Positions 8,563-64,000 of a stretch of DNA of 64,000 nt are shown piece after piece. Position numbers and translations under genes: made by a program. The stretch is from assembly GCA_022539475.1 (NCBI GenBank), contig VCMS01000305.1, forward strand, positions 1 to 64,000, read 5' to 3'. The notes under the pieces are model-generated. The model ran no database searches, was not told the origin of the DNA, and saw only the letters and a list, made by a program, of their open reading frames with translations. Origin of the DNA: Gracilaria domingensis. Lineage: Eukaryota; Rhodophyta; Florideophyceae; Gracilariales; Gracilariaceae. Each line of letters opens with the position of its first letter. The stretch's first letter is position 1.

Positions 8563-8878
8563 GTCGTAGAGGAGGATCTATCTTAAGAACATTATTTCGA
8601 CGTGTGCACCAGAACTACGGCAGCAATATCGAGCCAGAATTCGCGGTATATCTTTACCACCATGCAGTCTCCTTGCATGGGCATCTCCCAGAATCGCAAT
8701 TCTACATACAAGAGACTCAGGACCATATTTCGCACTATGCTCGCACAGGAATCGCTCGGATACTCAGCTACACCCCCGACCCAGAGAAGCTAGCAGTACC
8801 CTTTCTCTTCCACTACACCACCGAGAATTAGCCCAGTACTTACGACGCCCGGCGTAGCGTCGTTTGGGTTTGGTGGTG

Positions 8879-10791
8879 TGTGGCCCGTCAAACGGTACAC
8901 GGACAGGTGTGCGTGTCTACACTCCTGCGTTGTGCCCAACGCAGCGGTAATACAGAATATAGTTTAAAAATGCTTTATTATAGTTAATCCTATCTTAGGT
9001 TTAGTTAGTTTTCTACGCAGAATCTACCTTGCGTGTGGCCAGGAGGCGCCGCACTACAAGCAGGGCGACATGAGATTGTCTACTTAAGTGGCAGAGAGCG
9101 CTCCAACGCTGACCACCCGACCTCATCGGCTGTCAATTGCCAAATTCGTGGTCACCCACAGGAGGCGCCTGCGCTTGCGCAAATACACGTGCATTCCACG
9201 CTGTGTACTGCGTTGCGTAGGCGCCCCCTGTGGCGGCATATGCGCTTAAAGTATCTACCACCTACGCCTCTTATAGGCTAGTACGGTAGATACAACGCAT
9301 CCATTGGCCAAGCCAACCGTACCGTCGATTCCCGCCTGGAATCGACGGTGCGGTTGTGCATAAAAGGGCCGGAGCAGTCGCCTCCGACTCAACTCCGGCC
9401 AGACCACTTCCCTTCGACGACCTTCCCCCCTACCCCACCACAACCTTCCAACCTCTCTCCTTTTCCCTTTGTCGTCCTCAACCTTTCCTCATCCCCTACT
9501 TCTCTCTCTACTTCTCCCCTTGGCGGCCTGGTCTCACCGCCCTCCCTCGCTCACTGCCACTCACACTGACCCTCTGTCTGGGCTCGTCCTGTGTGAGTAG
9601 GCAAAGCGTCTGCACCACCCTTCCATTGGGTTAGCCTTGTGCAGGCGTGACTCTGCCTTTCATTATCCGCTTTGTTTGGCCTTTCTTGTCTCTTTTGTTC
9701 CCTTCGTTGGTTTCTTTCGCTGTTGTTGGTCTATCTGCCATTCTGTCTTGCCTGAACTACCGTTGTTGTTGTCATCTTCGTTTTTTCCCCGTTTCTTGCT
9801 GTTTGGCGGCCTTCTGCTGCCTGCATCCGTTCTATTGCTTCCCGTTTCGGCCTTGGTCCCTGGTTTTGCTGGTTCTTTCGCGTTGCGATTCTGTTCCTCA
9901 CATAGTGTTGCTTTGCACCTGTTGTTGCTAGACGCACTGTGTGATACAGCGTAAGGTTGTCCTTAACCTACGGCCCTGAGGCAATCGTTCAAGAGTAAGT
10001 TGTCTACAGCTACTCTTTTGGCATTTTGTGTGACTACTAACGTTTCGTTTGTTTCACATCAAGTGCCAAGGTCTATCGTTTCATCCAGCGAGTATTCGTC
10101 CGTGGTCGATCCGGACGAGCGTATAGAAGAAGTCCCCGATCCCGTTCCTCAGATAAAGAAGTCGGCTGTTCAGCCTCTTGACGGGCCACGCGAGCGCCAC
10201 ATCTTTCGTGTAGCCCACCAGAAGGAGAAGCGCCGTCGTAACCCCCCGCCACGTAAGCAAATCCTAAAGCGCTGCCGCGTCTGCGACATTAAGGTTCAGA
10301 GTCAACGCCAGCTTGAAGTTCACCAAGCAGGCCGACGCCATCGTAGAGCCGTACGTCGCGCCAACTACACCGAGCAGGACATCCACTGCGAGGTTTGTGA
10401 CATCAAGTTCTCCGAAGCTCACGATCTGCGTGTGCACTACAGAAGCCGTCGCCATCGTGCGACCCTTAGGAAGAAGAACAATACTATCTATTAGAGCACA
10501 GGTCTCTCTTTTCATTGTCCAGTTGTGACACATTTCTATTCATATCTCATTACATATATTATCCTTGTTTGTTCTTCTTTATCTTCTCGCCTATCGTTTG
10601 GTATCCCTCTTCTGTTCTTGTGTTCGTGCTTTGTTGTTTGGCTTCTGCTGCACTCTATCTACGTAAGCTTATATTTGGCTAGTGCTTCTTCGTCCGATTG
10701 GACTGGTACTCTACGAGAGCAAACTTTATTTTCATTGTTTTTGCCCCCTTTGGCTGTAACCGCCGGCGCCATCACAAAAATGGCGTTTTCA
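8879..10791 (+). repeat. 3' LTR of element 1
   Basis: Copy of 231-2143 at a constant offset of 8648 with no length change. Differences noticed are a T/C near 1410/10058 and a C/T near 2001/10649. It carries the same promoter motifs, intron signals and zinc-finger ORF, so it could drive transcription into the gene starting at 11269, 478 bp downstream. Confidence 0.95.
10064..10494 (+). CDS. LTR-encoded double zinc-finger protein (3' LTR copy)
   Basis: Identical frame to the one in the 5' LTR, with the same intron-like segment just before it at 9995-10063 (GTAAGT, TACTAAC, AG). In this copy no gag follows, so a transcript starting in the 3' LTR could make the finger protein alone. One amino-acid difference from the other LTR lies upstream of the predicted exon, in intron sequence. 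If the ORF is real, every solo LTR of this family would be a small zinc-finger gene. Confidence 0.55.
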
Positions 10792-24527: not shown

Positions 24528-25619
24528 TCATGGGCAAGAATACTGCGCCACGATAGCGTCTACCACGGGGGCCATGGCTGCGCACCACTCATTGGTATTC
24601 CGATTGTAGTACTTGGTGTCCGAGTTCACCGCATACGGAATGTTGCTACACTGCAACGTCTGGCTCATGAAAGTGGCGAATACAACTTGTTCCTCGATCG
24701 AGTAAGAGCCACCGCCAGGCGGACAAGTGGGAGAGGAGGTACCACCGTCATTGAAGTTGCTTGGCATCCATGCACCCACCCATGTTGGGATTCCATTGTC
24801 GGCCGACCAGCTTAACGCCACATCCACCTTGTCCGTTATCAACGACTTCTCCAATTCTGTGCCTGTCGTCCATTGCTTCTTAGGGTTGTCCCGCTTTGGT
24901 CCGGCTGCGTAGAAATGCCACTGCACCATCATGTAATCGTTGTCCGGAACTTCGAGTTTGTCCAGCTCCAGCGGGCTGGAAATCTTGTTCGGGGCAATGA
25001 TCAATATTCTGGTCGCGTCAATGGCATGAACAGCAGTTTCAACTCTCTGATACAGTTCGTTCAATTTGTCGTTATGCTTCTTAATCTCCTCTGTAGTCTC
25101 GATGATGATATTGTATGACAGAAGATAGTCCCTGTCCTGCAGGGCTGTTGCAACAGCGACCCACCAATCAACGACCGCGTCCATCTCATCCGGATTTGTA
25201 GGATCAGACTTGAAACGCGCTCCCTGAAATGCAAGCACTGGTATCAAGGCTGAATCGAGGCAGTCATCCACCGTTCGTTTCATCTCCTCCAGCAACGAAA
25301 CACCAGTTTTCGGATTGATTACCTCCAGGTCATACTCTTTGACGCGGAGTCTGACATGAGAGAAGCCACGGTCCTTGAAGACCTGAGGCACGTCAACTCC
25401 TCTCTGCTCCCGCGATTTCCAGTTTTGTGTTCGCCCAGAACCTGTTTTGAGCCAGTCAACGTCCATCCCAACGCCAAGAAGTGATTGGTATTGGGCAGGG
25501 GTGTACGTCTGCTGCTGTCCCGCAACGGTGGTCACCAACCATAGAGCGCATGCGAAAGGTAGCCCGACCTTCATGCTTCGTGAAACGCTGATGACTTTCC
25601 TCAGATTATCGCTGGACAT
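24528..25619 (-). CDS. Secreted GH5-type glycoside hydrolase-like protein
   Basis: 363 residues from the ATG at 25619; a second in-frame ATG (residue 16, 25574) gives a cleaner signal peptide, MKVGLPFACALWLVTTVAG, and may be the true start. The body fits a GH5 cellulase-type (beta/alpha)8 barrel: GVGMDVDWLKTG early, FSHVRLRV near 86, SYNIIIETTEE near 169-178 holding the candidate acid/base Glu174, RILIIAPN near 203, VQWHFYAAGP near 231, and GIPTWVGAWMPSNFNDGG near 275. The strand that in many GH5 enzymes carries the nucleophile Glu reads VGAW, with Ala282. This may be a subfamily variant or an inactive site. The family cleaves beta-1,4 glucans or mannans outside the cell, which would fit wall remodelling. 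Confidence 0.7.
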   Translation of the reverse strand: MSSDNLRKVISVSRSMKVGLPFACALWLVTTVAGQQQTYTPAQYQSLLGVGMDVDWLKTGSGRTQNWKSREQRGVDVPQVFKDRGFSHVRLRVKEYDLEVINPKTGVSLLEEMKRTVDDCLDSALIPVLAFQGARFKSDPTNPDEMDAVVDWWVAVATALQDRDYLLSYNIIIETTEEIKKHNDKLNELYQRVETAVHAIDATRILIIAPNKISSPLELDKLEVPDNDYMMVQWHFYAAGPKRDNPKKQWTTGTELEKSLITDKVDVALSWSADNGIPTWVGAWMPSNFNDGGTSSPTCPPGGGSYSIEEQVVFATFMSQTLQCSNIPYAVNSDTKYYNRNTNEWCAAMAPVVDAIVAQYSCP

Positions 25620-48328: not shown

Positions 48329-51300
48329 ATGTCGCACACAGTTTCTCCTGGGGCTGCAAAGTTTCGAATATTTCTCAGCCATGCTGGAGAAGACAAAGAA
48401 ACTATCGCGAGACCGTTGTATGAGCGGCTTAAAGATCATCACATTTCGGTTTTTCTGGATGATGAGTCCTTTCGTCTCGGAGATGATTGTCCTAAAGTCA
48501 TGCAGAATGCCATGGAAACCGCTCCCGTCGGCGTGTTTGTCTTTAGTCCCGAGTTTGTCGCCAAGAAATGGCCGATGCGAGAACTTCTTACATTTGTTCG
48601 CCGATACGAAGACGCCGTAGCCGCCAATGAGACTCCGCCGCTACTGATCTCTATCTTTTACCGTTTCACTACTAGAGAGTGTCGCGATCCGACTATATTT
48701 CACACTTACAGCAAGCTTTTCGATCAGTATGGTCTTTTCAAACGTGCCCTTGATGATGATGTACCGCTAAAAGATGTAAAGCATGCATTGCATATGGCTG
48801 CCACTCTTTGGAGTATTGAGAACGATCTTGGGGCAACCAATTCCGACCGCCGGAATATGGCCTCCACGAGAAACGAGTTCATTCAGATCGTTCTCAACAA
48901 GATTTTGGATATACCTGGAATGAGAAAGTCCCAATCCTCGGGCACTGCCCATTTAGCGGTCGGTAATCAACCTAGTAAGCAAGATACCTATATCTCAGGA
49001 TTGTGCCAAGTGCCCCCAAATCCGCCGAGATTAGTACTGGAGTATACTTCTCCGACTACAAGCGAAGGAGAGTTAATGTCAGCAATTCTACGCCAAAGTG
49101 AGAGCAGAATTATTGCCATTGTAGCTACCGGAAAAGGTGGTGTCGGAAAGACTTGCGCTTTGAGAGGACTAGCTGACGACAGTGTAATCAAACGCTTGTT
49201 TCCAGGAGGCATTTTTTACATTCAACTTGGAAATGATGCTACGTTATCGCATGTAATTGAGGAAATCGCACATGCAGTTGACTTTACAGGAGGCTCGAAG
49301 CTTTCAAGTGAGATAAGGACGTGCAAGTCTGTTCCAGAAGCATCTGAGAAGGCTGCACAATGGTTTCGACTGCACTCATGCTTGTTTCTTGTGGACGATA
49401 TTTGGAATGTGAGTGGAATAGACTCTAACGTGTTGACCAGTCTAGGGCTCATATTGAACACAAAGAGTCGATTGGTGTACACAACAAGAGACAAATATTT
49501 TCTGGTAATGGCGAACGAAGTGATTGAGTTTAAAGAAAAGGAGGCAGATGGGGAATTGTCGCGGCGAATGTTGATGACACATGCGGGGTTTGATCAAAGT
49601 ACTGTGTTGCTGCACAAGAATAAGGATGCGTTCGATTATTTTCTGAAGTTGTGCCAAGGACTACCGCTTGGGTTTGGCATTGTCGGGAGCTCAGTAAGAG
49701 AATACACACGTGAGTGCTCACCGAATGAAAACGCATGGTCAGAGTTGTACAGTGACATTATATCGGAAGACATGGATCTAATGGAAGCTGAAGCTGCTAC
49801 TTATGGTACACTGGCAAAGATTGTGGATATATCTCTGCAAGTGCTTGAGAAGCGGAATGGGGATAGAAATGTTTCGTACTGGTTTCGTGCTCTGTGTGTA
49901 ATTCAGAAACAGCAATATGTTCCTGTGGGGATGCTACAAAAGCTATGGGGCCTAGATACATTGAAAGAAACGAAACGTGTGGTGAAGTTGTTTGCAGATG
50001 TTTCAATTTTGCAAAGTACGCGAGCTGATGGATCGGTGTCTGTGCAGGTGCATGATTTGATTTTGGACATTGCCGCTCACAAAGCCAAGGAAGCTGGTGG
50101 GAGAGAAGGTTCGTTCAAAAGGGTTGTGAGGAATTACGCGCGATGTAAGCAAATGAATGAGAGAGATGAATCGCTTTCGTATAGAGGGGGACAGTCGCAG
50201 GGTTGTACCGAAGCCAATGATACATTTTGTAATAGTAGGACTCTCAAAAGGCCGCATGGAACAAGAATCAGGGAGGGCCATCAAACTGCAGCTCAAACTG
50301 CATGTGTCAAGCGCTTTCGGTGCGGCGAAGGTGAAGGAGATGATTTGCGGACTAGAAGGCAATATGCGGGGACTGGCAGGGAAGGAATAGAGCGCCAACC
50401 AAAGTCACATGTTGAATCTGAGAGAGGTATTGGAGAAGATGTGACAGCGGTAGGGAGCGAGCAAGGTGTTACAGGTTCGGGGTTGTGCCGGCCATGGTGG
50501 ACTGCTGTTGATGATGGGTACATACACAACAACCTTTGCAGATTACTGCGAAACGCAGGATATGGAGAGGAGCTGCTTTGGCTGTTATCGCGACCGCAGT
50601 GGATTGTGAAACGACTTGTTGAAAGCGGAATCCTTGGTGTGGAAGTGGACTTGGGTCATGGGAAAGCAGTATGCAGCGATGAATCTCCGCAGTCGAGTTT
50701 ACGGAAGGAGAATTTAGAAATGATTGAACGAGCTACGAGATTGGGGGCGTTGTTTGTGAACAAGAACCGTCGTGTGGAGGAGGGATGGTTTCAGGTGCAT
50801 GGGCGGTTGCTGTGGCACGCAAAGCAAAATAAGCTGACAAAAGAGTTTGTAGAGAGGATGGAGAGAAGTGCACCGAAGCCATGGCTGAAAGCGGGTGAAG
50901 GAGTGTTGGAGCAGGCGGGTTGTGGTGCCGTGCGAATTATCCACGTTCAGGGTAAGGCGTTTTGCATTCGAATTGAACCTAAAGCTATTTGGGTTTTGTT
51001 GTCTGACAAATATCGCTATGAAATGCATGTGGGAACGTACGAAACGTTGAGTGAAGACTACAAAGAAAAGAGGCTTGAGGAGCACGGACAGGAGCTTGGA
51101 AGTATGGAGTGTGCTTCGTTCTTGCCGGATGGAAGAACAGTTGTGACTGCGCACAATGGTGGAAAAATTTGCGTATGGAACAGGCAAACAGGAGCTTTGG
51201 AGAAAGTTGTAGCGCACGAGTGTGAAAAGCACAGTAGATTTATCGACTTTTGCGCGGATGGAGCTCTGCTTGCTTGCAGGACAGAAGATCATACTATTCA

Positions 51301-52663
51301 GATGTGGGACGCTCAAAGGGGCAATGCCGTTGGTAAGCCGCTCATAGATCGCTCAGACAAGGTGCTATGTGTCGCTGCAAACGCGGACGGCTCCCGGATC
51401 GTGGCTGGGTCACGCGACCGAAAGGTGCGTGTGTGGGACGCTGGAAGCGGTAAAGCCGTCGGGCAGCCGCTTAAAGGTCACACAGGCTCGGTGGAACGTT
51501 TGGCATTAAACGCGGACGGCACTCGCATCGTGTCTGGCTCTTGGGACGGAACGGTGCGCGTGTGGGACGTTGAAAGCGGCAACGCAGTCGGTAAGCCGCT
51601 CGAAGGTCACACGGAGGGAGTGAGCTGCGTGGCTGTAAACGCGGACGGCACCCGCATCGTGTCTGGCTCATTGGACAAAACGGTGCGTGTGTGGGACGTT
51701 GAAGGGCAAACCTGCCCTGGGAAGTCCTATTTTTTTTCACAGTTTCATACATTGGGATGGAGAAAAAGCAACAACGCAGTCGGTAAGCCGCACGAAGGTC
51801 ACACGGAGGGGGTGAGCTGCGTGGCTGTAAACGCGGACTGCAATCGCATCGTGTCCGGGTCAGACGACGGGACGGTGCGTGTTTGGGACGTTGAAAGCAC
51901 TAACGCCGTCGGGAAGCCACCCGAAGGTCACACTCACTCTGTGGCGTGCGTGGCTGTAAGCGCGGACGGCACTCGCATCGTTTCTGGGTGCACGGACGGA
52001 ACGGTGCGTATGTGGGACGCTGAAAGCGGCAACGCCGTCGGGCAGCCGCTCGAAGGTCACACAGGAGGGGTGAGCTGCGTGGCTGTGAACGCGGACGGCA
52101 CTCGCATCGTGTCTGTCTCAAGCGACCGAACGGTGTGTCAGACGGTGCGTATGTGGGACGTTGGAAGCGGCTTCGCTGTCGGTAGGCTACTCGAAGGTCA
52201 CACACACCGGGTGGAGTGCGTGGCTGTAAACGCGAGCGGCACTCGCATCGTGGGTGGCTCATGGGACGGAACGGTGCGTGTGTGGGACGCTAGAAGCGGC
52301 AACGCTGTCGGTAAGCCGCTCGAAGGTCACACACACTGGGTGGAGTGCGTGGCTGTGAACGCGGACGGCAGCCGTGTTGTGTCCGACGACGGAGAAATGA
52401 AACTGCTGTGGGCATTGAACGGCGATGGCGTTGAGTGCGTGCTCACCTCACGTGACGCCGAGTGGCAGCGTGCCATCGACGCGCTCGAGCTCACCTGGTC
52501 CGGGGGCAAACAATGGGAAGACCCATGGCAGCGGGAGGTGCGCGCTGTCGTCGAGAACGGCTCTGAGATTGTGCTAGGCACCTCCGAATGCGGATTATAC
52601 AACTTACACGGTGGAGATGTGTACTTCACCAGAGACTTCCGGTCGTGCCGCATTGTGCGCTGA
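48329..52663 (+). CDS. TIR-NB-ARC-WD40 receptor-like protein
   Basis: 1444 residues in one exon from an ATG. The TIR domain (about 10-145) begins KFRIFLSHAGEDK; its WPMREL segment places Glu85 where the NADase glutamate of catalytic TIRs lies. NB-ARC (about 230-590): P-loop GKGGVGKT near 268, Walker B CLFLVDDIW near 350, RLVYTTRD near 382, QGLPLG near 445, and VHDLILDIA near 575 as the MHD-type motif. A linker of about 300 residues has no recognised fold. The C-terminus (about 925-1370) has about ten WD40 repeats with unit VRVWD...GHT; the inner ones are nearly identical and 43 residues (129 bp) long. By family analogy this is a STAND signalling receptor of innate immunity, with WD40 as sensor instead of plant LRRs. 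One WD repeat holds an in-frame insertion near 51704-51770. No intron. Confidence 0.85.
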   Translation: MSHTVSPGAAKFRIFLSHAGEDKETIARPLYERLKDHHISVFLDDESFRLGDDCPKVMQNAMETAPVGVFVFSPEFVAKKWPMRELLTFVRRYEDAVAANETPPLLISIFYRFTTRECRDPTIFHTYSKLFDQYGLFKRALDDDVPLKDVKHALHMAATLWSIENDLGATNSDRRNMASTRNEFIQIVLNKILDIPGMRKSQSSGTAHLAVGNQPSKQDTYISGLCQVPPNPPRLVLEYTSPTTSEGELMSAILRQSESRIIAIVATGKGGVGKTCALRGLADDSVIKRLFPGGIFYIQLGNDATLSHVIEEIAHAVDFTGGSKLSSEIRTCKSVPEASEKAAQWFRLHSCLFLVDDIWNVSGIDSNVLTSLGLILNTKSRLVYTTRDKYFLVMANEVIEFKEKEADGELSRRMLMTHAGFDQSTVLLHKNKDAFDYFLKLCQGLPLGFGIVGSSVREYTRECSPNENAWSELYSDIISEDMDLMEAEAATYGTLAKIVDISLQVLEKRNGDRNVSYWFRALCVIQKQQYVPVGMLQKLWGLDTLKETKRVVKLFADVSILQSTRADGSVSVQVHDLILDIAAHKAKEAGGREGSFKRVVRNYARCKQMNERDESLSYRGGQSQGCTEANDTFCNSRTLKRPHGTRIREGHQTAAQTACVKRFRCGEGEGDDLRTRRQYAGTGREGIERQPKSHVESERGIGEDVTAVGSEQGVTGSGLCRPWWTAVDDGYIHNNLCRLLRNAGYGEELLWLLSRPQWIVKRLVESGILGVEVDLGHGKAVCSDESPQSSLRKENLEMIERATRLGALFVNKNRRVEEGWFQVHGRLLWHAKQNKLTKEFVERMERSAPKPWLKAGEGVLEQAGCGAVRIIHVQGKAFCIRIEPKAIWVLLSDKYRYEMHVGTYETLSEDYKEKRLEEHGQELGSMECASFLPDGRTVVTAHNGGKICVWNRQTGALEKVVAHECEKHSRFIDFCADGALLACRTEDHTIQMWDAQRGNAVGKPLIDRSDKVLCVAANADGSRIVAGSRDRKVRVWDAGSGKAVGQPLKGHTGSVERLALNADGTRIVSGSWDGTVRVWDVESGNAVGKPLEGHTEGVSCVAVNADGTRIVSGSLDKTVRVWDVEGQTCPGKSYFFSQFHTLGWRKSNNAVGKPHEGHTEGVSCVAVNADCNRIVSGSDDGTVRVWDVESTNAVGKPPEGHTHSVACVAVSADGTRIVSGCTDGTVRMWDAESGNAVGQPLEGHTGGVSCVAVNADGTRIVSVSSDRTVCQTVRMWDVGSGFAVGRLLEGHTHRVECVAVNASGTRIVGGSWDGTVRVWDARSGNAVGKPLEGHTHWVECVAVNADGSRVVSDDGEMKLLWALNGDGVECVLTSRDAEWQRAIDALELTWSGGKQWEDPWQREVRAVVENGSEIVLGTSECGLYNLHGGDVYFTRDFRSCRIVR
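51340..52390 (+). repeat. Near-identical 129-bp WD40 repeat array
   Basis: Seven to eight tandem units inside the receptor gene, each encoding a close variant of GHTEGVSCVAVNADGTRIVSG followed by TVRVWDVESGNAVGKPLE. DNA identity between units is much higher than protein function requires, pointing to recent amplification or gene conversion. One unit is expanded by the 51704-51770 insertion and another by a short CQT insertion near 52135. Confidence 0.85.
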
Positions 52664-54242
52664 CGTTCCGAGCGGCCATCGCTTCCCATGCTTTGCGCGC
52701 TATTCGCTCTCGCTGAGCCATTTCCTCATGGCCTCAGCACCGCCAGCGGCCTTGCAGGGTGGGTATGGGTACTTCATACCCGATTTCCGGTCGCGCCGTA
52801 TTGTGCGCTCAAGCTAGAACAGCCCATCTTTCGCTTGCCCGTATGCCAGTAAAGGTTGAACTGGACGAAGTGCCGACTTGAACTTGTCACTCCCGGAAGC
52901 GAGCGGTAAGCATTGGTCCCAGCTTTGGCCTGCGGTAGCCGTGTTGAGTCCGGTGCGCATTTCTCGCACTTGTAACTAGACAGGTTGCATACGCGTTGTG
53001 CCGTTTCTGTGCGATACCAAACAAAACACATCTTTTCTGCGCGTCGTTCCTGAGGGCCTCACCGCCAGAGCGCTGCGCACGTGCCCGTTAGGCCGTCTCT
53101 GCCTGTGTCAAATCGTCTGTTTTGTCCACTGCTTGAGGTAATGTGATGCGAACGAGTTGGAACACGCGTGCAATAGGCTGGGCTGCGAAGGCTGCGTGGA
53201 CATTATAGATGGCGATCACCGCCATGATGGCGTTGTGTTCGCGCCAGGACGGCGTTCTGTGCGACGAGAGGTCCGTCTTGGAGCGCGGAGGCGCTGGTCA
53301 GTGCTGAAATGCGCGGGCGAGGAACCGGAACGGGGTAGGAGCCACAGATCGCAACACGGCATCGGCTACGCGACAGCTGCGGGACGAACCGCCTGAGCGC
53401 GGAACTGCACTACCGGATACTCCCGAAACGGCTGGAAGCGCAATGTACTTGTAGCACCATATGGTTGAGTGTAGCGAAGCTCTGTTTGAATGCTCTCTGA
53501 GTTGAGAAACACTCATCACCAGCTCGCCAGACACATCTCACCCATGAAACGATGTGTTTTGCTTGCGGACGTGGCGTCATATGGTGCGATCGGCACGTCA
53601 GACTGCGGTTTCCACAAGGGTGCGTGTGCAAACTGGAGCTGTCTAAAGGTGCCGACCGGCGGGAGAGATGGTCGGCGAGAAGGGGCCACAGGTTGGAGCG
53701 TTTGCAGTTTGCGCGGCTTGCAAACTGAGATCACGCCAGCGGTACCTGACACCCGTTGAGCGGCCCTTCTCACAAGCGTGGCGTCGAGCTGATCGTTGGC
53801 GTCGCCAGATCCTCGCCGTTGTTCCTCGACGAACTTGTGCGGTTGACAACTGGTGAAGCACAACACGCTTTTCGTCGCCGCTGATAATGCTGCGCAGGTC
53901 TGAACGTGAAGTTTCCGCTCTGGCGAAGCATGCGATTCCGGTAACTCGCTACGTTCGGCTTATGAAGCTCGTGCGTTCGACAAATGTGGCGTGGTCCGTC
54001 TCCCTTCACGGCTCGCACTCGTCCCTCCTGCCCTCGGCGCGCTCAGACCGCGGCATGTGCACGCATTGCACGGCGCAGAGCGGCTTGGGCGCTCAAGACC
54101 ATCAGCTGACGATCAGCTGCCGCCTTGACGCGCTCGCTATCACGTCCGAGCTCGCAACTCGCACGAGCCCGTCAGAGATCGTTGAGCGCCGTCGAGGCTC
54201 GACGGTCGAGCTACACCCAGTGACCGTAAATGGAGTGGGTGA
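52664..54242. other. Downstream region with an echo of the receptor's 3' end
   Basis: At 52758-52810 a segment (GGYGYFIPDFRSRRIVRS in one frame) repeats the last codons of the receptor (GGDVYFTRDFRSCRIVR), so a diverged partial copy follows the gene by about 100 bp. From 52.9 to 54.2 kb the DNA is GC-rich with only short frames and no recognised gene. Confidence 0.45.
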
Positions 54243-54288
54243 ATAATTAGTGTTGGCCCATGATTGATGTAGGCCACACTAATTAGGG
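54243..54288. repeat. Inverted repeat near the DNA transposon
   Basis: TAATTAGTGTTGGCC and the near reverse complement GGCCACACTAATTA are separated by about 13 bp. A further TTTAGTGTGGG lies at 54315. This is probably transposon terminal sequence; similar blocks occur at 42.2-42.7 kb. Confidence 0.5.
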
Positions 54289-54447
54289 TGCATAGAGCTC
54301 AAACAGCGGTCGAATTTAGTGTGGGTTGCAGACCAATTTGCGCGGGAAACGGCCGCTTTATCATGAGAAGCTTACTTCAGCTCACAACAGAGACAAAATG
54401 GCTCTCTCACACACACCTGCTTTTGTGCCCGCCACACACAAACTCGT

Positions 54448-55395
54448 ATGACCATGAGCGCACCCCTTAGCGGATCGCCCATTATAGCAGCTTTTCAAAG
54501 AGCTGCACAACGCCGCCGCAGCGTCACCCTGCCGAGGACAGTTCCCAATGTTCTTTCACAACAGCCCGTAGTTGCACCATCTTCTGCCCGCATCCAGCAA
54601 AATGAGATACGCAACAAGCAAACCACAGACAGACGTAGAGTTATTCGGGTTCTTACTATCGGAGAAAGAGCCAAAATTGCAGCCTGGATGTTCAAAGAAA
54701 GCAGTTGCAATGGGCAGAAGCGCATAATTTCCAAAGCAGTTCTTCAGTTCCCTGATCTTTTTCGCGGATCTAAAGACGCTAATCTTCAAAAGGCCAGCCG
54801 CATATGGCGCACTCGAAACGAATATCTATCTGACGATGGACTTGTTGCTACAAGAGGTTCATGCGCAGCAGTGTCTCGTAGCACGCACATGGGCGTAAAG
54901 CGTGTAAATTTAAAGGCCAGACAGGGCCGTGGTCGTAAGCCACGGGCTTGGGTGCATGCTCTGCACCTCGAGATGCTGGAGGAGTTCGATCGTCTGCGCA
55001 AACTGGGTGTCAAATTCAATTGGAAAGTCCTTCAAGCTCTCGCAATTACTATCATTCACACTGGTGTTGACAAGCCGTATGACAGGCATGTTATTGACCC
55101 CAAATCAAAGAAATTGCTCTCAGAGTGTATCACGCGCAGGTGGATACAGGGATTAATCGAGCGCTATCGCATTGTTAGTCGCGCACATACTGGAAAAAAC
55201 ATGCTTTCACCTGCGAAAACAAAGCAGATACACATAGAGGTCGCCATTCATTTGGGGAAAATATGTCGAGCTTTTGGCAGTAGAGTCTGAGACGATGTGG
55301 AAGTAGAGAATGCTGATGAAACTCACTTCGTAATTAACTTTGACAATGGCAGGACACTGGGATTTTGCGGAGAAACGGAAGTAAAGTATGCAGAT
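54448..55395 (+). pseudogene. Truncated DDE-superfamily DNA transposase
   Basis: From the ATG at 54448 about 280 residues resemble the N-terminal half of a Tc1/mariner- or pogo-like DDE transposase: a basic start, helix-turn-helix regions (LTIGERAKIAAWMFKES, KFNWKVLQALAITII) and RRWIQGLIERYRIVSR. A TGA at 55288-55290 interrupts the frame. Directly after it the same frame continues ENADETHFVINFDNGRTLGF, whose NADETH holds a catalytic Asp of the family. Similarity stops at EVKYAD near 55395, where the second LTR element begins. The remaining half is presumably beyond the window on the far side of that element. Confidence 0.7.
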
Positions 55396-56642
55396 TGTGG
55401 GGCAAACTCGGAAGAGTGAAACCCACCAGACTGTCCGAAGGTCCGCTCTCGTGAGAGATGGCAGACCAGTGACAGAGCCCTCTGTACCACCGTAACTCGG
55501 TTGTAAGGCCGAAGTGGCAACTGGCTATACCTACAGAGGTGATAGGCCACGTGGTGAGGAAACGATAAGAAACTCCAGAGATGGGGTGGTATCGGCAACG
55601 ATGAAACACGACCAACGACAGGTGTAGTCCCGAGAGGGAAAGCAACAGAAAACAACAACCAAACAACACCCACACGCGACGGGTAGGGCCTCCTCGGCAC
55701 TGTGCCCGGAGCGAGGCGAGATCCTCCAACGGTAATGCACGGGTTTCCGTAAACACGGCAAAACTCTATACAGAGTCGGATCACTTCGTAATCTAGTCCT
55801 ATACCTCCTCGGTACGACCCTCAGGTCCCGACATCAACGACAGATGTTCCTTAAAGGTACCGAGAGGGTAGGACCACCGTAACCAGACGTGGCTATACTC
55901 GCGAGAGTGATAACCCACGTAGGCGGTTGGCGCCAGAGTGTAGTATAGCTCGGCCAGATCAACGGGGGCTCTACAAGACCAAGTGGTGACGTCACGGGCT
56001 CCCGGGCACGTGTGCCTCCTGTACCACGTGGGACGCGCAAGCGTAGGCTTGGACAAGACTAATTAGTTTATTCTCTTTAATTTAGAATTAATATTTACTA
56101 GGTAGTGTAGATATGTGGCCGGGGTGATGCACCACAAACGCACCTCCCGGTGGCCCACGTGGCACTAGGCCCGTGAGAGCCGGAGGGGCGCTCTGGTGTA
56201 CTAGACCCCCGAGACGCCAACCTCCCGCACCAAATGGTAAAGTCAAGCACCAACTAGGCTAATTTGACACCAGTTCGGTTCTACAGTCACCAATTGGTAA
56301 GTCTAGTAGTCCTCTAATAGTTTTGCTGACCTCGAGGGTTATACGTGCCTGCCGCACACCAGTGCAGGCGTATTTACCACTTGGTCACCGTGCACTATAG
56401 GCAACGGTGGGTGCTGCCGACCTATTAGGTGTCACGTGTTTCACTCCTCCGCCGGGTCGAGCCCACGCAGGGCTCCCCACTAGCAGCTCGCACCGATCGG
56501 CTATACCACATATTTTGGTCTCCCGACCTAGAATTTGTGGATTACCAAGTGGTTTTGGGAAGAGAGGATTTGGAAGTCACGAGATACCCGAGTGGTTTGG
56601 TTCCCGTTGCCGAAGCAATTGGCTCCGACGCCAGTTACCTAA
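55396..56642 (+). repeat. 5' LTR and leader of element 2
   Basis: Non-coding. Two similar blocks (near 55513 and 55891, both GGCTATAC...GTGATA..CCACGT) repeat within it and an AT-rich stretch lies at 56055-56110. ACC-N4-GGT palindromes start at 55978. The exact LTR end is uncertain because the 3' LTR is not in the window; several TGG-starting candidates for the primer site occur at 56515-56600. Confidence 0.55.
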
Positions 56643-58910
56643 ATGGAGAAACGGGGCGCGCGCTACCCAAATAGGGCGCCGAGCGCTCCACCAAGTGGTC
56701 ACCCCATACGGGGTTCAGTGTCCTATCCGGTGTTGGATAACCCGGAGGACCTGATTCGGAAGGAACGCCCACCGAGGGGGAAGAAGGTAGACCGAGAGGC
56801 TGGGGGCCCCTCGACCCTTCCCCGGGCTGACCAAGTGGACGGAGGAGCAGGCTCCGCAAGGGCGGAGCCCGCTCCTGTAACAACCCCAGTGGTAGACCAA
56901 ATGGAGGTGCCAGTCGGACCGCGACTGGACTTGGACGAGGTCACCCGAGTGGTGGTTGATCGAGCCTCCCAGGAGGTCCTCGACAAGGTACCTGTGGTGG
57001 TGTTACAGTACCTCGAAAACGAGGTGCGAGGACACATCGACCGATTGGTTATGCTGGCTCTGCAGCAGCAGGGGGCTAAGCTTCAACCTGAGATGGTGGC
57101 CCAGGCCGCGCTCATGAAGCAAGCTCCCCCGCCTGCAGTAGACGCCACCAAACCACTTGGTATTCTCCACCCTAACCTTCCTACACAACCGACTGGTGAA
57201 GGATTTATCGACCGTATGGGGAAAGGGGCAGAGCCTCCAGGGATGGAGGGCCCGAGGTACGTTTACCTCCCCCAACCTACTGGTGTAGCTCCGTCAGGAC
57301 CAAGTGGTGGAGACCCTGATGGAGATTCGTCGAGCTCAGGAGACGAGCGTCGACGTAAACCAAATGGTAAGAAGAAGAAAACCAAAAGGGGAAAGAGAAA
57401 GAGTCGCCGGTCGGACTCGGACTCTTCGTCCTCAGACACCGATTCGGATTCGTCAGGAGACGACGACCGTACAGGTTCACGACGCAAGAGGAAGGACTCT
57501 CGCAAGAAGAAAGGAAAGAATCCCCGCAAGGGTAAGACCAAAAGGTATAACGATTCGGACTCAACTTCCGACGAGGAGACTGACCTAGAGGTGCTTACGC
57601 CGCTCAATGATTTATTCACCAAAGCGGTCGACTATCGTACCTATAGGTTAGAGAACAGACAGGCTGAGTATACCAAAGAGGTAGCTCAGAAGATAACGAA
57701 GCATCATAGGAAGCTTCGTTTCCAACTGGGTGAAACTCGCTTTAGCGGGGATGACCCTATTGCGATCATTGATTTCCTTCAAAGGTTCAAGATCGCTTGT
57801 GATCAGAATGGGTTTTCAGAGGCAGCAGCCATGTGGCTGTTTCAATTTTACCTAACTGGTCAGGCTGGAGCGTTGCTCCACAGCCGCCTCCAAGGGAACA
57901 CCATGGCGGTGGACGAAGACCAAACGGAAATGTTGACAACATACCCACAGGTGGTTAACTTCCTACTGGAAACCTACGCGACCGATGAGGTAATCCAGGA
58001 GGCGTACGCAGAGGTGCTTGCGTATCGCCAGCGCGCGGGACAAACCGAATTGGAATTCGCTCGCTCCTTATGGGCATTAGCCTCCCGCTGTGGAAGCGTC
58101 TTTACTACCAAAAGGTTGAAATCGATGTACGCCGACAACGTGGCGAAGTCTATCCGATCACAGGTTCGTAACTACGTAGCTACCAACCGCACGGTCGACT
58201 ACAACGCACTAGCCCGCCATGCACAGGGACTAGGCGACACCGTTCGGTCAGGGGCCAGGAAAGACTCCGCACCACTCGGCAAACCATCGAAGGAGAAAGG
58301 TAAGACCAGGCGGTCAGTGTTTGACGTAGAGGAAGAGGAGACCACTACGGGGGAGGCGTCCACACAATACGCCTCCCAGGGTCACCCAGTCCACTTGGTG
58401 CATGCACAACCGACAACTCGATCGCACGGTAATACCTCTTGGTCCAGCTCGCTATCCAGCGAGCCACCCTCAAGACAAACCTCAGCTCCACCATCACAGG
58501 TATCCGTACCGGTCAGCCCGGTCCTAGCGGTACCATTCAAGCAATATGGTGAACAAGGACCATACCCGCAGCAACGGAGTGCAGTACCTACTGGAGGCCG
58601 TCCTCCATCGCGCGCGTCGTCGCTCGCAATGAAGGACCCCACAACCGGCAATCTCCTCTGTTGGTTCTGTTTGTCGCCCCACCACTTGGCAACAGCGTGC
58701 CCAAGTGTGGCTCCGCAGAACAGGAACGCTCTCCTGACTGCTCGCCAGCAGAACCACCAGGATATATTTGGGCCCCCGGCACGGAGCGCAGGCACGGGAC
58801 ACGCAAATGCGCGACCCAATGCAGCCACACCTCATCAGGTACACCTCGTCACGGAGCAGGACCAAACGGATCCCGCCCCGCAGGCGGAAAACGCCGAACA
58901 GTTGGGATAG
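56643..58910 (+). CDS. gag: Gag of Ty3/gypsy element 2
   Basis: 755 residues from an ATG at 56643. The N-terminal 210 residues are Pro/Gly-rich; a charged, Ser/Asp/Lys/Arg-rich segment (about 220-320, many SDSDSSSSD-like runs) follows. The capsid domain lies at about 345-540 (FQLGETRFSGDDPIAIIDFLQRF, QFYLTGQAGALLHSRL). Near 675 comes a single CCHC knuckle, CWFCLSPHHLATAC. The basic/acidic low-complexity region is unusual for Gag and may bind nucleic acid. Pol lies in another frame and overlaps the gag end, as in family members that use programmed frameshifting. Confidence 0.8.
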   Translation: MEKRGARYPNRAPSAPPSGHPIRGSVSYPVLDNPEDLIRKERPPRGKKVDREAGGPSTLPRADQVDGGAGSARAEPAPVTTPVVDQMEVPVGPRLDLDEVTRVVVDRASQEVLDKVPVVVLQYLENEVRGHIDRLVMLALQQQGAKLQPEMVAQAALMKQAPPPAVDATKPLGILHPNLPTQPTGEGFIDRMGKGAEPPGMEGPRYVYLPQPTGVAPSGPSGGDPDGDSSSSGDERRRKPNGKKKKTKRGKRKSRRSDSDSSSSDTDSDSSGDDDRTGSRRKRKDSRKKKGKNPRKGKTKRYNDSDSTSDEETDLEVLTPLNDLFTKAVDYRTYRLENRQAEYTKEVAQKITKHHRKLRFQLGETRFSGDDPIAIIDFLQRFKIACDQNGFSEAAAMWLFQFYLTGQAGALLHSRLQGNTMAVDEDQTEMLTTYPQVVNFLLETYATDEVIQEAYAEVLAYRQRAGQTELEFARSLWALASRCGSVFTTKRLKSMYADNVAKSIRSQVRNYVATNRTVDYNALARHAQGLGDTVRSGARKDSAPLGKPSKEKGKTRRSVFDVEEEETTTGEASTQYASQGHPVHLVHAQPTTRSHGNTSWSSSLSSEPPSRQTSAPPSQVSVPVSPVLAVPFKQYGEQGPYPQQRSAVPTGGRPPSRASSLAMKDPTTGNLLCWFCLSPHHLATACPSVAPQNRNALLTARQQNHQDIFGPPARSAGTGHANARPNAATPHQVHLVTEQDQTDPAPQAENAEQLG

Positions 58911-61900
58911 AGGCCTTCCCCAACTGTCCGAAGACGGAAGGCCTTCCAGAACCAAGTGGTGCAAGTATGGACAATTACCCATTGGTTACAGGGGAGGAGA
59001 GCCTCATGGACGGCACCGAACCGATATGCTTTCTCAAGCATAGTAACTATAAGGTAAACGTCACCCTCGGGTTTACTTCTAACCACTTGGTACCATGCGT
59101 CATTGTCCTGGACACCGGGGCAGGACCTAATCTGGTGAATGCCAAACTATTAACTAACAGACAACTTAATAAGCTTCAGCCATGTACATTAACTAACCCA
59201 CTGGTTGACGCCAACAACAGACCACTAACCGTCATGGGAGCGCTTACCATAATGGTATTGATTGACACCATGAGGGTCCGAGTTCGCTTCATAGTCGTTA
59301 ACCAACTGGCAACAGACTGTATCCTTGGAACAACTTTTATAGACCAGCATGTCAGGGCAATTTTTCCACGTTCTAAGACAGTTCTGTTCCATAATGGCCC
59401 CCGGATCGCCATTATTGGTAACCACAAGGGTGCCTCTACGAAAGAGAACCGCACTCAACACCAACCGGTCCCGGAAAACACACTCTCCAACAAGGTGCGA
59501 TTGGCAAAGGCGGTAACAATACCGCCTATGAACCACTTGGTAGTGAAGGTCACATGCCAACAACCTGGCCTGTTATCCATTCAGAACCATTCACGGTTGG
59601 CCGAACGACACATGACCTTAATGGCGAATGGTATAGTCGACAACATACCGACAAAACCGTTTCAGGTCTACCTGAGTAACTTCAGCAACCGCCCGGTCAA
59701 GTTGCCAAAACACACCGTAATTGGTCTTGCCTTACCGGCTCCCCGTACGATCTTTACAATTATACCACAATGGTCCCACGAGGTCGTGGATGCTAAGGAA
59801 GGGGGGGGCAGTGTCAATTCGTTGAATTCGTCGCGAACAGACCATATGGTGCAGCGACTAGCTGAGCGAGAAGACCAGAAACTGGAGCTCGACCCAGTGA
59901 CCAATTGGAAGACGGAGGTGAATATAGGACTTGAAGGGGAAGAGCTCAGAGCTCGGATCCTTGGACTCCTGGAGCCATTCAGTACCATGTGGTCGGGTAA
60001 GCTGGGAGCCATTAAGGCCACCCAGCACAGGATTGACCTCAAACCGGACTCCCGTCCCATCCACCAACAGCCATACCGCGCGGGACATAAGGCCCGTGAG
60101 GTAGAGCTGGAGGAGGTAGAGCGGATGCTCCGCGAGGGGGTTATAGAACCGGCAAACTCGGAATGGGCTAGCCCTGTAGTGCTAGTCCAAAAACGAGGAG
60201 AGACCCGTATGAGGTTCTGTATTGACTACAGAAAACTTAATGCCGTAACGGTAAGGGACTCGTACCCCATCCCGAGGATGGACGAATGCATCGACTCCCT
60301 AGGAGATGCGAACATCTTTACCACACTGGACGCCAACTGCGGGTATTGGCAGATCGAAATACCAGAGGGTGACCGTGATAAGACTGCGTTTACATGCCAC
60401 GCAGGCCTGTATCGCTTCTTACGCATGCCGTTTGGTTTAAGAAACGCCCCCGCTACCTTCCAAAGGGCGTTAGACATCATACTGTCTAAGTGAAGTGGAC
60501 AACCGCATTGGTATACATAGATGACGTAGTCATCTACTCGAGGTCCATAGAGGAGCACTTCTCGCACGTCCAAGTGGTACTGCAGTTGCTACAAGAGGCA
60601 GGCGTGACCCTCAAACTACGAAAGTGTATGTTCTTCAACCAAGAGGTAGAGTACCTAGGGCATACAATAAGCCCCGGGAAACTCGAAGTGACCAAACGGA
60701 ATATCCGAGCGGTACAGGAAGCGAAGCTCCCTACGTCGCAAACGGACATACGATCCTTTATAGGTCTATGCAACGTCTACCGGCGGTTCATCAAGGGTTT
60801 TGCAAAGATAGCCGCACCCCTGAACCGGAGGTTGCAGAAGGGGCAGCCCACACACTTTGACCACCTGGAAGAGGACGAGGTAGAGGCGTTCTATACATTG
60901 AAAGCAGCGCTTCTCTCCCCACCGGTACTGGCATTGCCCAAAACGGGACTCCCGTATACACTGGACACGGATGCGTCGGACGCCCAAATAGGTTGCTGCC
61001 TAATGCAGGAACAGGAGGACGGCAAGCTCGCACCAATTGGGTATTGAAGTAGAGCTCTTAACCAAGCGGAGCAGAACTACACCGTAACGGAGAAGGAATG
61101 CCTAGCGGTTGTTTGGAGCATGCTGATGCTACGTCCTTACCTATATGGTGTGCGCTTCACGCTCCGAACGGATCACGACTCCTTGAGGTGGATATTAGGC
61201 TTGGCGGACGCATCGGGTCGTCTGGCCCGATGGCGTCTGAGACTCTCGGAGTTTGAGTACGATGTGCAGTACCGCCCCGGGGTCAAGCACCGAGTGGCGG
61301 ATGCATTGTCCCGGTTGAATACCGAAGGATTGGACACTGACCCAGTGGACGACGACATCCCATGCTTTACTATAGAACTAGCTAACCACGAGGTCAATGA
61401 AGTTCTGAAGGGATATTGGCATGATGACAGTACGTACCAAGTGGTAGTGGAGACCCTCCTTCCTGTGGAGGAAGGGGAACACGCTCCAATCACCCGTGAG
61501 GAATTCTTACGCGAACAATCGACCGATAGGTTGTGCAAAACGCTCGCTGACGTACTTGGAAGGAAGGATTCTCATTTCGACGTCGACCACAATGGGTACC
61601 TCATCAGACGCTCACCTTTAGACGGAGCTCCCCAGAACGTCGTACCTGAGTCATTAAGACAAAGGGTGTTATATCTGTCACACAATCCACGGCTCTCGGG
61701 GCACCCTGGAGCCACGCGGTTGTACTATACCCTTCGGAGGCAATTCTACTGGCCGCATATGGCTAACGATGTATATACCTATGTGGCGCAATGCAATTCG
61801 TGCATTAAGACCCGAGGTGGTGTGGCGAAGCACAGGAAGTACCTGAAGCTATTCCCGGCGGCGGGGCCCCTGGAATTCGTAGCAATCGACATACTGGGGC

Positions 61901-63209
61901 CCCTGCCCAAGACCTCAGAGGGTTATCGCTTTGTGGTAGTCATAACCGACAGGTTCACAAAGCTCACCAGAGCCATACCCTGAAGAACCAAACGGCAACG
62001 ACACTAGCAACAGCCTTCCTGGAGAATTGGGTCTACCCGTACGGTGCTCCCATGTACCTACTGACCGATAACGGTTCGAACCTAGCTTCTAAGTTCTTCG
62101 AGGCGGTTTGTACAATGCTAGGGGTCAAGCACTACTTTACCACGGCCTATCATCCGCAAACAAACGGCCAAGTGGAACGCTTCAATAAGACCCTAGTGGC
62201 ACGCCTACGGCACTATGTCGAAGAGCACCAAACCACATGGTCGGAGTATGTCCAACCATTGACATATGCGTACAACCTCCAGGTCCACAGGGTCACTCAA
62301 ACAACCCCATTCGACCTGGTACTTTCGCGAACACCACATGGTATTATCGTCCAGCCCGGACCTGACCGCTCGGAAGCGGCCGGGACACTCACACCGGCGA
62401 AGGTCAAGAGAGACATACTCCAGAAGTTACGCGCCGCTTTGGCTGCTGCCAAAGTTAAGATGACAGCAGCCCAAGAACGGTATAAAGCGGACTATGACCG
62501 AACGGTGAGCAAAGTGACCAAAGTGGTAGCAGGAGACATGGTCTTCCTCGACGTGCCACCAAAAGGTAAGCGTCCAACCCCAGCGGAGATGGAAGAGGAC
62601 ATCCGCCTTGAGGAGGATATCAATTCTAAACTACTACCCAAGTCCACGGGACCATACAAGGTGATTCGCTCCGACGAGCATACCGCTACGGTCATAATGG
62701 AAGGTTTGGAGAACACGGTCTCCATCGACAGGATTGTCAAGGCCGCACAACCGACGACAGCGAATGCACAACCAATAGGTGAGCCAACGCAGCAGGAAGC
62801 GGAGAGGGAGCAAACGTCTCCCATACACCCTCCTATGATGAGTCAGCCGAGCGGTCAACCTTCCACCAGAGCCGTAACGGCTGACCCCACGACCCAAACG
62901 GCACAGGAGATCGACCCTCGGCAAGACCAACGGGTCACACCACCCACGGGGAGCCACGCACCCCATGACCAAATGGAAGAGTCACACCCTCAAGTAGACA
63001 CTCAGGAGTGCGCTATTGACACCATTGTAGGTCACGAACACACCACAAAGGGTATGCGCTACCGGGTAAGATGGTATGGATGGTCGCCCGAGTACGACTC
63101 TATGGAACCACCTGGTCATATCCCTAACAACTTCATCATCCGATACTGGCGCAAACAAGGGCGAACGCCCCCACCAACTGGTATTGCTTCGCGTGGTACG
63201 CGTCGCTAA
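58911..63209 (+). pseudogene. pol: Pol of Ty3/gypsy element 2, with a few breaks
   Basis: Aspartic protease near 59.1 kb (VIVLDTGAGPNLV), reverse transcriptase about 60.0-60.9 kb (RFCIDYRKLNAVT; YIDDVVIYS), RNase H about 60.9-61.3 kb (TLDTDASDAQIG, TDHDSLRWIL), integrase zinc-binding and core about 61.4-62.4 kb (ending near TAYHPQTNGQVERFNKTL) and a C-terminal chromodomain near 63.0-63.2 kb (MRYRVRWYGWSPEYDSMEP). The chromodomain places it among chromoviruses, whose integrases can be steered to histone-marked chromatin. It is broken in about three places and is treated as a fossil. Confidence 0.85.
59792..59808 (+). promoter_or_regulatory. Candidate central polypurine tract
   Basis: GCTAAGGAAGGGGGGGG inside pol is identical over 17 nt to the tract at 63205. 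A second polypurine primer site in the middle of the genome is known in lentiviruses, spumaviruses and Ty1. Confidence 0.5.
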
Positions 63210-63222
63210 GGAAGGGGGGGGG
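63205..63222 (+). promoter_or_regulatory. Candidate 3' polypurine tract
   Basis: GCTAAGGAAGGGGGGGGG overlaps the pol stop codon, the classical kind of plus-strand primer site. It is not directly followed by a match to the 5' LTR, so either the LTR is divergent or more internal sequence (the antisense ORF) intervenes. Confidence 0.5.
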
Positions 63223-63316
63223 TTATCGAAGCCGTTGAACGCCACGCTACACGAAAAGCTAACTAACTAACCTAACAGGAAAACAAAAGAAGATCAGAGA
63301 TCACAATGCAAGACAC

Positions 63317-63322
63317 TTTATT
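63317..63322 (-). terminator. Poly(A) signal of the antisense ORF
   Basis: TTTATT on the plus strand (AATAAA on the minus strand), 39 bp beyond the stop of the antisense frame. Confidence 0.5.
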
Positions 63323-63360
63323 AGTCGAGAAGAATCCACGAGAGGGAACCACGAGGTGAC

Positions 63361-64000
63361 TTAGGAGGCCTTGGAGGACCCACGGCCACGTCCGCGTCCA
63401 CGACTGGTTCCACGACCGCGACCACGTCCACGGGAGGTCCCGCGAGATGAAGCGGAACCTCCACGACCAGAGGACACCGACATAGGTCCGGCGGAGCTTC
63501 CGCCCCCGCCGCTAGCCGCGCTCGGTGGCGCACCACCACTTGGTAAGGGAGCAGAAGTACCAGCAGGTCCCGCAGGGGTACCGCTGCTGACTACCGGCAT
63601 GGTATTCGCAGGACCAGTGGGTGGATGGAAGGAAGGCGGTAAGCTAGACGGAGGGATGCCACCAGAGGTCGGAGGAGCAAGACCACTAGACGGCCCTGCA
63701 CCGGGGGTCAGACCAGTAGGCGGCCTAGGAGCACCGGACGTCGGCGGAAGCGGAGCCGAACGGAAACCAGTTGAGAAACCACTTGGTGCTCCTGTCCCAG
63801 TACTTGCTGGAGGAAGAGGAACGTTGTGAGGACCAAGCGGAGTATGGAAAGGTGCCGAAGAATCACCACCAGGAGGTCCACCAGGGAGTTGATACGTACC
63901 AAGGCCACCAAAGCCTACCATTGGGGTCGCAGGTTGCTGTGACGCAGGAGCGTACGGGTTGAAACTTTCCACCGGGGGTCGATGTAACGGCGCGTGGCCT
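63361..64000 (-). CDS. Antisense Pro-rich, RG-repeat ORF in element 2 (partial)
   Basis: A minus-strand frame of at least 213 residues, open to the window edge, so its start is probably outside; the only internal ATG (63921) would give about 187 residues. The bulk is Pro/Gly/Ser/Thr-rich (PPGGDSSAPF, GPSSGLAPPTSGG) and the C-terminal 35 residues are RG repeats (SRGRGRGRGTSRGRGRGRG), typical of RNA-binding RGG boxes. A poly(A) signal follows. ACC-N4-GGT palindromes at 63535 and 63778 lie inside it, tying it to the element. Antisense extra ORFs near the 3' end are known in some plant Ty3/gypsy lineages; function here is unknown. Low complexity means a chance frame cannot be excluded. Confidence 0.5.
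   Translation of the reverse strand, partial: GHAPLHRPPVESFNPYAPASQQPATPMVGFGGLGTYQLPGGPPGGDSSAPFHTPLGPHNVPLPPASTGTGAPSGFSTGFRSAPLPPTSGAPRPPTGLTPGAGPSSGLAPPTSGGIPPSSLPPSFHPPTGPANTMPVVSSGTPAGPAGTSAPLPSGGAPPSAASGGGGSSAGPMSVSSGRGGSASSRGTSRGRGRGRGTSRGRGRGRGSSKAS

Follow-up and report, generated by a model that had tools for sequence, protein, structure and literature searches.

A window of 64,000 nucleotides from the red alga Gracilaria domingensis (contig VCMS01000305.1, positions 1 to 64,000) contains, in the interval 55978..63787, most of a Ty3/gypsy long terminal repeat (LTR) retrotransposon with a chromodomain, which we call element 2 and whose family is abbreviated below as EL2. The element is densely strewn with the dyad-symmetric words ACC-N4-GGT, ACC-N5-GGT and ACC-N6-GGT. 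Comparison with related elements indicates that ACC...GGT is a sequence-specific signal kept by selection beyond the protein code, and not a product of codon bias. We see about an even chance that the dyads are cis-acting recognition sites that would be read on duplex DNA by a dimeric or multimeric protein, probably encoded by the element itself.

Dyad array of element 2

The array comprises 52 exact copies of ACC-N4-GGT together with 23 copies of ACC-N5-GGT and 17 of ACC-N6-GGT. A first-pass annotation, made from the letters of the sequence, had reported an excess of ACC-N4-GGT in this element; the excess is larger than it claimed, its count of 21 exact copies being too low, and its definition of the motif holds for the N4 form but missed the spacers of 5 and 6 as well as the patterns of other gypsy families. 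The spacers that it named as favoured, AAGT and ACTT, indeed occur in 6 of the 52 sites each, and 12 of the 52 read ACCAAGTGGT or ACCACTTGGT (starts at 55978, 56376, 56544, 56690, 57152, 57299, 58951, 59082, 59532, 61436, 63535 and 63778).

The whole window holds 64 ACC-N4-GGT, whereas 100 dinucleotide shuffles average 11.6 and never exceed 20. The density is 6.66/kb in 55978-63787 and 0.18/kb (10 sites) in 1-54400, in agreement with the earlier observation that host DNA lacks the pattern, and the motif is not equally common in host genes. Across the genome, 21,944 occurrences in 77.9 Mb (control, 18,689) correspond to just 0.28/kb, so the enrichment belongs to element families and not to the genome. 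The word ACCAAGTGGT has 838 + 850 genome occurrences, compared with 83 + 56 for the pattern read backwards. When 64 trimer half-sites with spacers of 0-14 were ranked in the element part 55939-64000 (8,062 bp) against 40 dinucleotide shuffles, ACC-N4-GGT was the top dyad (53 vs 3.4 expected); ACC-N5-GGT (24 vs 3.6) and ACC-N6-GGT (17 vs 3.2) were enriched as well. The features of element 2, including its open reading frames (ORFs) and the reverse transcriptase (RT) part of pol, are as follows, in window coordinates except for the last line.

55978..63787, no strand: array of 52 exact ACC-N4-GGT sites (ACCNNNNGGT)
55939..56510, plus strand: 5' LTR, 572 bp (TGTAGTATAG...CTATACCACA), 97.0% match over 572 bp to the 3' LTR of the complete copy on contig C4
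56516..56529, plus strand: putative tRNA primer binding site TGGTCTCCCGACCT, judged from the sequence right after the LTR
56643..58910, plus strand: gag ORF, 755 aa, assigned by homology only
58661..60493, plus strand: pol, RT part (PF00078, E 1.4e-15)
61120..61983, plus strand: pol, RNase H and integrase zinc-binding part (PF17917, PF17921)
62052..63209, plus strand: pol, integrase core piece (PF13683, E 9.4e-5, below the family cut-off) and C-terminal chromodomain (PF00385, E 3.5e-6)
63361..63999, minus strand: antisense ORF, C-terminal part, rich in proline and glycine, with RG repeats, continuing past the window end
L040:2456-5278, plus strand: complete antisense ORF, 941 codons, open in the C4 copy; its end corresponds to window 63361-63999 (minus strand)

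The order gag, RT, RNase H, integrase, chromodomain, established by Pfam and, for gag, by homology, is that of chromodomain Ty3/gypsy elements. The gag ORF has no Pfam match and 34 homologues, of which the three named ones come from Agarophyton chilense (39, 44 and 51% identity); its motif CWFCLSPHHLATACP is presumably zinc-knuckle-like. The reading frames of the window copy are broken up, and this copy has the 5' LTR only, with the contig ending at 65468. The complete copy on contig C4 spans 11.4 kb (11,385 bp), and its two 572-bp LTRs share 99.8% identity (over 576 bp); a 5-bp target duplication, AGGTT, was read from the copy ends on either side. A 1-kb RT piece was found in 40 copies at 99-100% identity (40 of 569 candidates scored), and the family is young and high-copy.

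The C4 copy carries 64 ACC-N4-GGT sites in its 11,385 bp, and its 3,116 bp of flanks carry 0. In element 2 the gaps between sites average 152 bp with a coefficient of variation of 0.9. Regular phasing was rejected, as no period clearly stands out (largest R 0.197 at 10.5 bp vs about 0.14 for random), and so was a fixed 10-mer as the sole unit, because spacers of 5 and 6 are likewise enriched and conserved.

Codon-preserving shuffles gave mean counts below the real ones in each coding piece: 16 sites vs 3.07 in gag (maximum 9 in 1000 shuffles), 11 vs 3.2 in the RT piece, 4 vs 0.82 in the RNase H/integrase piece (maximum 4) and 9 vs 2.95 in the last pol piece (maximum 8). It is practically negligible that codon usage, composition or protein motifs generate the words, even though ACC (252) and GGT (191) are frequent in the element. 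Codon-shuffled EL2 contains 22.0 +- 3.4 dyads with spacers of 4 to 6 (maximum 33 in 500 shuffles), compared with 75 real ones; the gag sites fall in every codon phase (6, 4, 6), as had been noted at first sight; and the non-coding LTR and leader hold 6 sites in 704 bp. Chance and codon bias were ruled out by the dinucleotide and codon-preserving shuffles. Five sites (55978, 56142, 56229, 56289 and 56376) lie in 55939-56510; the annotation had correctly placed sites there, but the "leader" to which it assigned them consists of the 5' LTR and a short leader.

Element 1 (about 1-9 kb), likewise a gypsy element, contains none of the 64 exact matches of the window, and neither dyads nor hairpins are in excess in its RNase H and integrase ORFs (z -0.4), as expected from the first reading. 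A slight excess of CC-N7/N8-GG was seen in bins 1-2000 and 8001-10000 of this region.

Conservation of the half-sites

Two relatives were compared with EL2, namely L073, with 92.3% identity, and L072, with 60.7% across 6,365 aligned positions. EL2 and L072 share alignment columns for 24 of the 75 N4-N6 dyads, compared with 5.6 +- 1.8 and a maximum of 12 in 500 codon shuffles. Third codon positions within the arms are identical to L072 in a fraction of 0.684 (n=136), compared with 0.388 +- 0.041 for base-matched positions, tryptophan codons included, and 0.353 for the spacers. Among the 995 codons that specify the same amino acid in EL2 and L072, third-position identity reaches 0.703 in arms (n=74), 0.365 in spacers (n=52), 0.397 in flanks (n=199) and 0.366 outside any CC-N4..7-GG dyad. 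With other CC-GG dyads excluded, the codon-matched expectation is 0.466 +- 0.051, and 0 of 10,000 draws reach 0.703. All three spacer classes contribute (N4 0.632, N5 0.759 and N6 0.742 vs about 0.39). In L073, arms are conserved at 0.944 vs 0.866 for base-matched positions (P 0.0016).

This conservation is confined to one half-site. ACC reaches a z of 7.1 among the 39 trimer dyads that offer 8 or more third-position cells, whereas the other 38 average 0.1; the next highest are GAA (2.7, 5 sites), TTC (2.4, 5 sites) and GCC (2.0, 9 sites). Other hairpin stems of EL2 are not conserved (0.406 vs 0.386), and general hairpin selection in EL2 was ruled out on this ground. Column sharing and arm conservation at unchanged amino acids thus point to a selected, sequence-specific signal and not to codon bias, which upholds the initial view of a dyad-symmetric signal at the nucleic-acid level that protein coding does not explain. 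The comparison of synonymous positions proposed at that stage gave a positive result against the diverged relative L072 and was uninformative among young copies.

Other gypsy families of the genome

We collected 30 RT loci falling into five groups (150 of 1,776 candidates scored); hairpin excess was evaluated for 10 of the 30 loci plus L074, and stem conservation and compensation between families for 5 of 9 aligned loci. Related loci include L055/L058/L069, L046/L051/L068 and L045/L070. CC-Nk-GG ranks first among distance-dependent dinucleotide pairs in EL2 (k4), L072 (k5, then 4), L073 (k4), L046 (k6) and L042 (k6); it ranks second in L055 (k9) and fourth in L045 (k6), and in L061 it is not near the top of the ranking. 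L074 has 44 CC-N9-GG vs 19 expected (z 7.1). The inverse pair GG-Nk-CC is not comparably raised, with some excess in L055 at k 5 and 6. The CC-N4-GG dyads of L072 often carry the same base on both flanks (A-A 21, T-T 18 and G-G 11 of 129).

Perfect short hairpins (4-bp arms, loops 3-7) were counted against codon-preserving shuffles. The excess is large in L055 (172 vs 60.6, z 13.1), L058 (z 9.1) and L074 (169 vs 80.9, z 8.8), followed by L045 (7.0), L069 (6.9), L051 (5.2), L046 (3.9), L070 (3.7) and L068 (3.2); it is unclear in L042 (z 1.7) and L061 (z 1.4). EL2 shows z of 3.1 in gag and 3.8 in RT, and of -0.6 and 0.5 in the later pol pieces. Six host ORFs show no hairpin or dyad excess (z -1.7 to 1.0). 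Perfect hairpins of 4-5 bp, of any sequence and with a C-rich 5' arm, tile the RT coding regions of L055, L058, L069, L045, L051 and L074. Inner pairs are complementary with any sequence in L046 (N6, 26 vs 11.1) and L074 (N9, 31 of 49). Between families, stem pairs are unchanged at 0.527 vs 0.456 and paired after a double change at 0.433 vs 0.36, and stem third positions lie more than 2 standard deviations above base-matched ones in 7 of 16 comparisons; this compensation comes with no G-U preference. Dense dyads or hairpins are therefore common, although not universal, among the gypsy loci examined, and follow at least two grammars. No relatives were confirmed in viral contigs among 12 + 2 pattern matches.

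A mutational process, for example hairpin-templated copying errors during reverse transcription, might write functionless palindromes into such elements. It would fit the excess in several LTR families and its absence from the six host ORFs, as well as the any-sequence inner pairs of L046 and L074. We nevertheless hold it very unlikely: in EL2 only ACC...GGT is involved, the arms remain unchanged instead of changing together (129 of 212 dyad pairs are the same and 6 are compensated), and element 1 shows none of these patterns.

Several observations concern the surroundings of element 2. The stretch 55290-55935, immediately upstream of its 5' LTR, is rich in CC-N5/N6-GG (12 vs 6 each in bin 54001-56000) and may be part of an element of another family into which element 2 inserted. 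An adjoining 280-aa ORF (54448-55290, plus strand) has no Pfam match and gives the impression of a fragment of a transposase-like gene. Farther upstream are a 1,444-aa ORF with WD40 repeats at its C-terminus (48329-52663, plus strand) and a GH5 gene (24528-25619), for which identity is 79% with A. chilense and 57% with Chondrus crispus. By its gag and GH5 matches the host alga is a relative of A. chilense.

Proposed reading of the sites and comparison with known systems

In the proposed mechanism, purifying selection would maintain the dyads over the length of the element, where they overlap gag and pol, and a putative dimeric or multimeric protein would read them on duplex DNA, whichever way round they lie. 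Each subunit would contact one ACC(A/G) half-site, the two lying on opposite strands; the spacing would be somewhat flexible, and the high density of sites would mark the element DNA as "self". The reader would most likely be one of the element's own proteins, namely integrase, Gag or the antisense product, and would act along the whole copy. Its purpose would most plausibly be to shield active copies from host silencing, as the VANC protein discussed below does, or else to steer integration complexes.

The two favoured spacers, AAGT and ACTT, are mutual reverse complements and equally used. In the C4 copy, words co-occur with their reverse complements 30 times vs 12.6 expected (P 0.002), and in L073, which is not independent of the C4 copy, 14 times vs 5.6 (P 0.006). 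Among 212 arm pairs in EL2, single changes produced 13 G-U and 12 A-C pairs, so G-U is not preferred. Both the use of the two orientations and the lack of a G-U preference speak for a dimer that would read duplex DNA.

The main alternative is that the dyads act as tiny stem-loops (3-bp ACC/GGU stem, loop of 4-6) in element RNA or single-stranded complementary DNA, to which Gag would bind and which would act as scattered signals for packaging or condensation. Dispersed stem-loop packaging signals have been proposed for some RNA viruses. The conservation of all three spacers, the avoidance of complementarity just outside the core (see below), the any-sequence stem excess in other gypsy families such as L055, the covarying inner pairs of L046 and the mild compensation between families would all suit such loops. 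However, EL2 stems other than ACC/GGT are unconserved, and the compensated, G-U-tolerant pairing expected of RNA signals was not found in the EL2 dyads, where only 6 of 212 pairs are compensated. Folding z relative to shuffled energies is similar for both strands (-0.9 and -1.1), and the most enriched class of 4-bp arms has a loop of 2 (48 vs 19), too tight for an RNA loop. The genome-scale ordered RNA structure of RNA viruses likewise spreads structure signals through coding sequence, unlike the situation here, where folding has no strand bias and G-U is not preferred. Overall we consider stem-loops unlikely, though a serious contender, and give the duplex reading roughly twice the weight of the hairpin reading.

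Several results weigh against selected sites on duplex DNA. The claim of conservation depends mainly on one diverged relative, L072. Some of the conservation seen disappears on codon matching (0.389 to 0.565), as the codon-usage explanation would have it: compared with all non-arm codons, arms stand at 0.703 vs 0.565 (z 2.6), and in L073 the codon-matched z is only 1.6. Among 29 young copies there is no sign of constraint in polymorphic columns (0.070 in arms vs 0.071 elsewhere), with difference rates of 0.0049 in arms vs 0.0088 elsewhere. Orientation symmetry is non-significant in L072 (12 vs 9.2, P 0.23), and no orientation-symmetry excess was found for spacers of 5 and 6. The freedom of spacing from 4 to 6 is unusual for a rigid dimer. 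Finally, the pair just outside the core is less complementary than expected (189 vs 242, nine rows summed), which a duplex dimer does not predict; this holds for EL2 N4 (24 vs 35.2), L072 N4 (23 vs 33.2) and N5 (19 vs 35.6), and L073 N4 (27 vs 33.9) and N5 (16 vs 25.9), and was not seen in EL2 N6, EL2 N7 and L072 N6.

The antisense ORF is one candidate for the reader. Compared with L073, it has accumulated 74/50/268 substitutions at codon positions 1/2/3, a pattern indicating that it is coding and under purifying selection. Its product has no Pfam match at E 1 and no homologue at E 1e-3 (none among 7,999 scored), and the ORF appears to be an orphan gene of the retrotransposon. It was, however, not detected in 9.9 kb of L072, which bears the same kind of sites, a further difficulty for the antisense product as reader; gag or integrase, which are common to both, are thus at least as plausible.

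Alternatively, a host DNA-binding protein might recognise the sites in the service of chromatin anchoring, insulation or transcription, with the element exploiting it, as the gypsy element exploits a host zinc-finger protein (PMC2374998). This seems quite improbable to us. The motif is far sparser elsewhere (0.28/kb genome-wide vs 6.66/kb), and selection against silencing would be expected to strip repressor sites instead of retaining them. Moreover, spacing differs between families, for which readers encoded by each family are the easier explanation. Extending the proposal of element-encoded readers, we tentatively suggest, as a possibility with less than even chances, that each of several families carries its own "dyad code" of half-site and spacing, repeated in scores of copies over coding sequence, selected as a self-identity tag and read by a co-evolving family-encoded protein. 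The code of EL2 would be ACC with a spacing of 4, that of L072 ACC with 5 and 4, that of the L046 group CC-GG with 6, and that of the L055 and L074 loci CC-GG with 9.

It is an open question how a mobile element tags its own nucleic acid as "self", be it for packaging, activity or avoidance of insertion, and a motif that occurs dozens of times per copy, is conserved at silent positions and differs between families offers a directly testable handle on it. Where coding sequence carries such a dense second layer of information, estimates of neutral silent change would be upset for these elements as well. In the open-licence literature, screened partly by title, we found no account of conserved dyads spread through the coding sequence of any LTR element, no paper joining a retrotransposon and the 10-mer, and no description of such dyads in work on Gracilaria LTR retrotransposons.

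Among known systems, HIP1 of cyanobacteria is described as a very frequent short palindrome that occurs genome-wide, is linked to methyltransferases and has a proposed DNA-level explanation (PMC4390886). The dyads resemble it in being a short palindrome at very high frequency; they differ in being restricted to element families, in a eukaryote, and in having a variable spacer, and we regard HIP1 as an analogy only. The first-pass annotation had stated that no LTR element with internal sites of this kind was described, which does not hold: the Drosophila gypsy insulator has 12 Su(Hw) sites within 340 bp of the 5' untranslated region, AT-rich and bound by a host protein (PMC2374998). Both elements are LTR retrotransposons with multiple internal sites, here putative protein targets; unlike the clustered gypsy sites, the 64 N4 sites of the C4 copy extend over 11.4 kb, from the LTR through pol and beyond.

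The system nearest in logic is VANDAL21/VANC21 of Arabidopsis, a DNA transposon in which a dense family-specific motif, YAGTATTAY, is read by the element's own anti-silencing protein and lies mainly in non-coding regions, in one orientation and often in tandem repeats (PMC5735166). The antisense ORF, as a possible counterpart of VANC, is coding and has no recognised domain or homologue, with no direct comparison made to VANC sequences. Unlike VANDAL21, element 2 is an LTR element, and its motif is dyad-symmetric, lies inside gag (16 N4 sites) and pol, and is not arranged in tandem. As in VANDAL21, the motif is dense in one family, rare elsewhere and different between related families.

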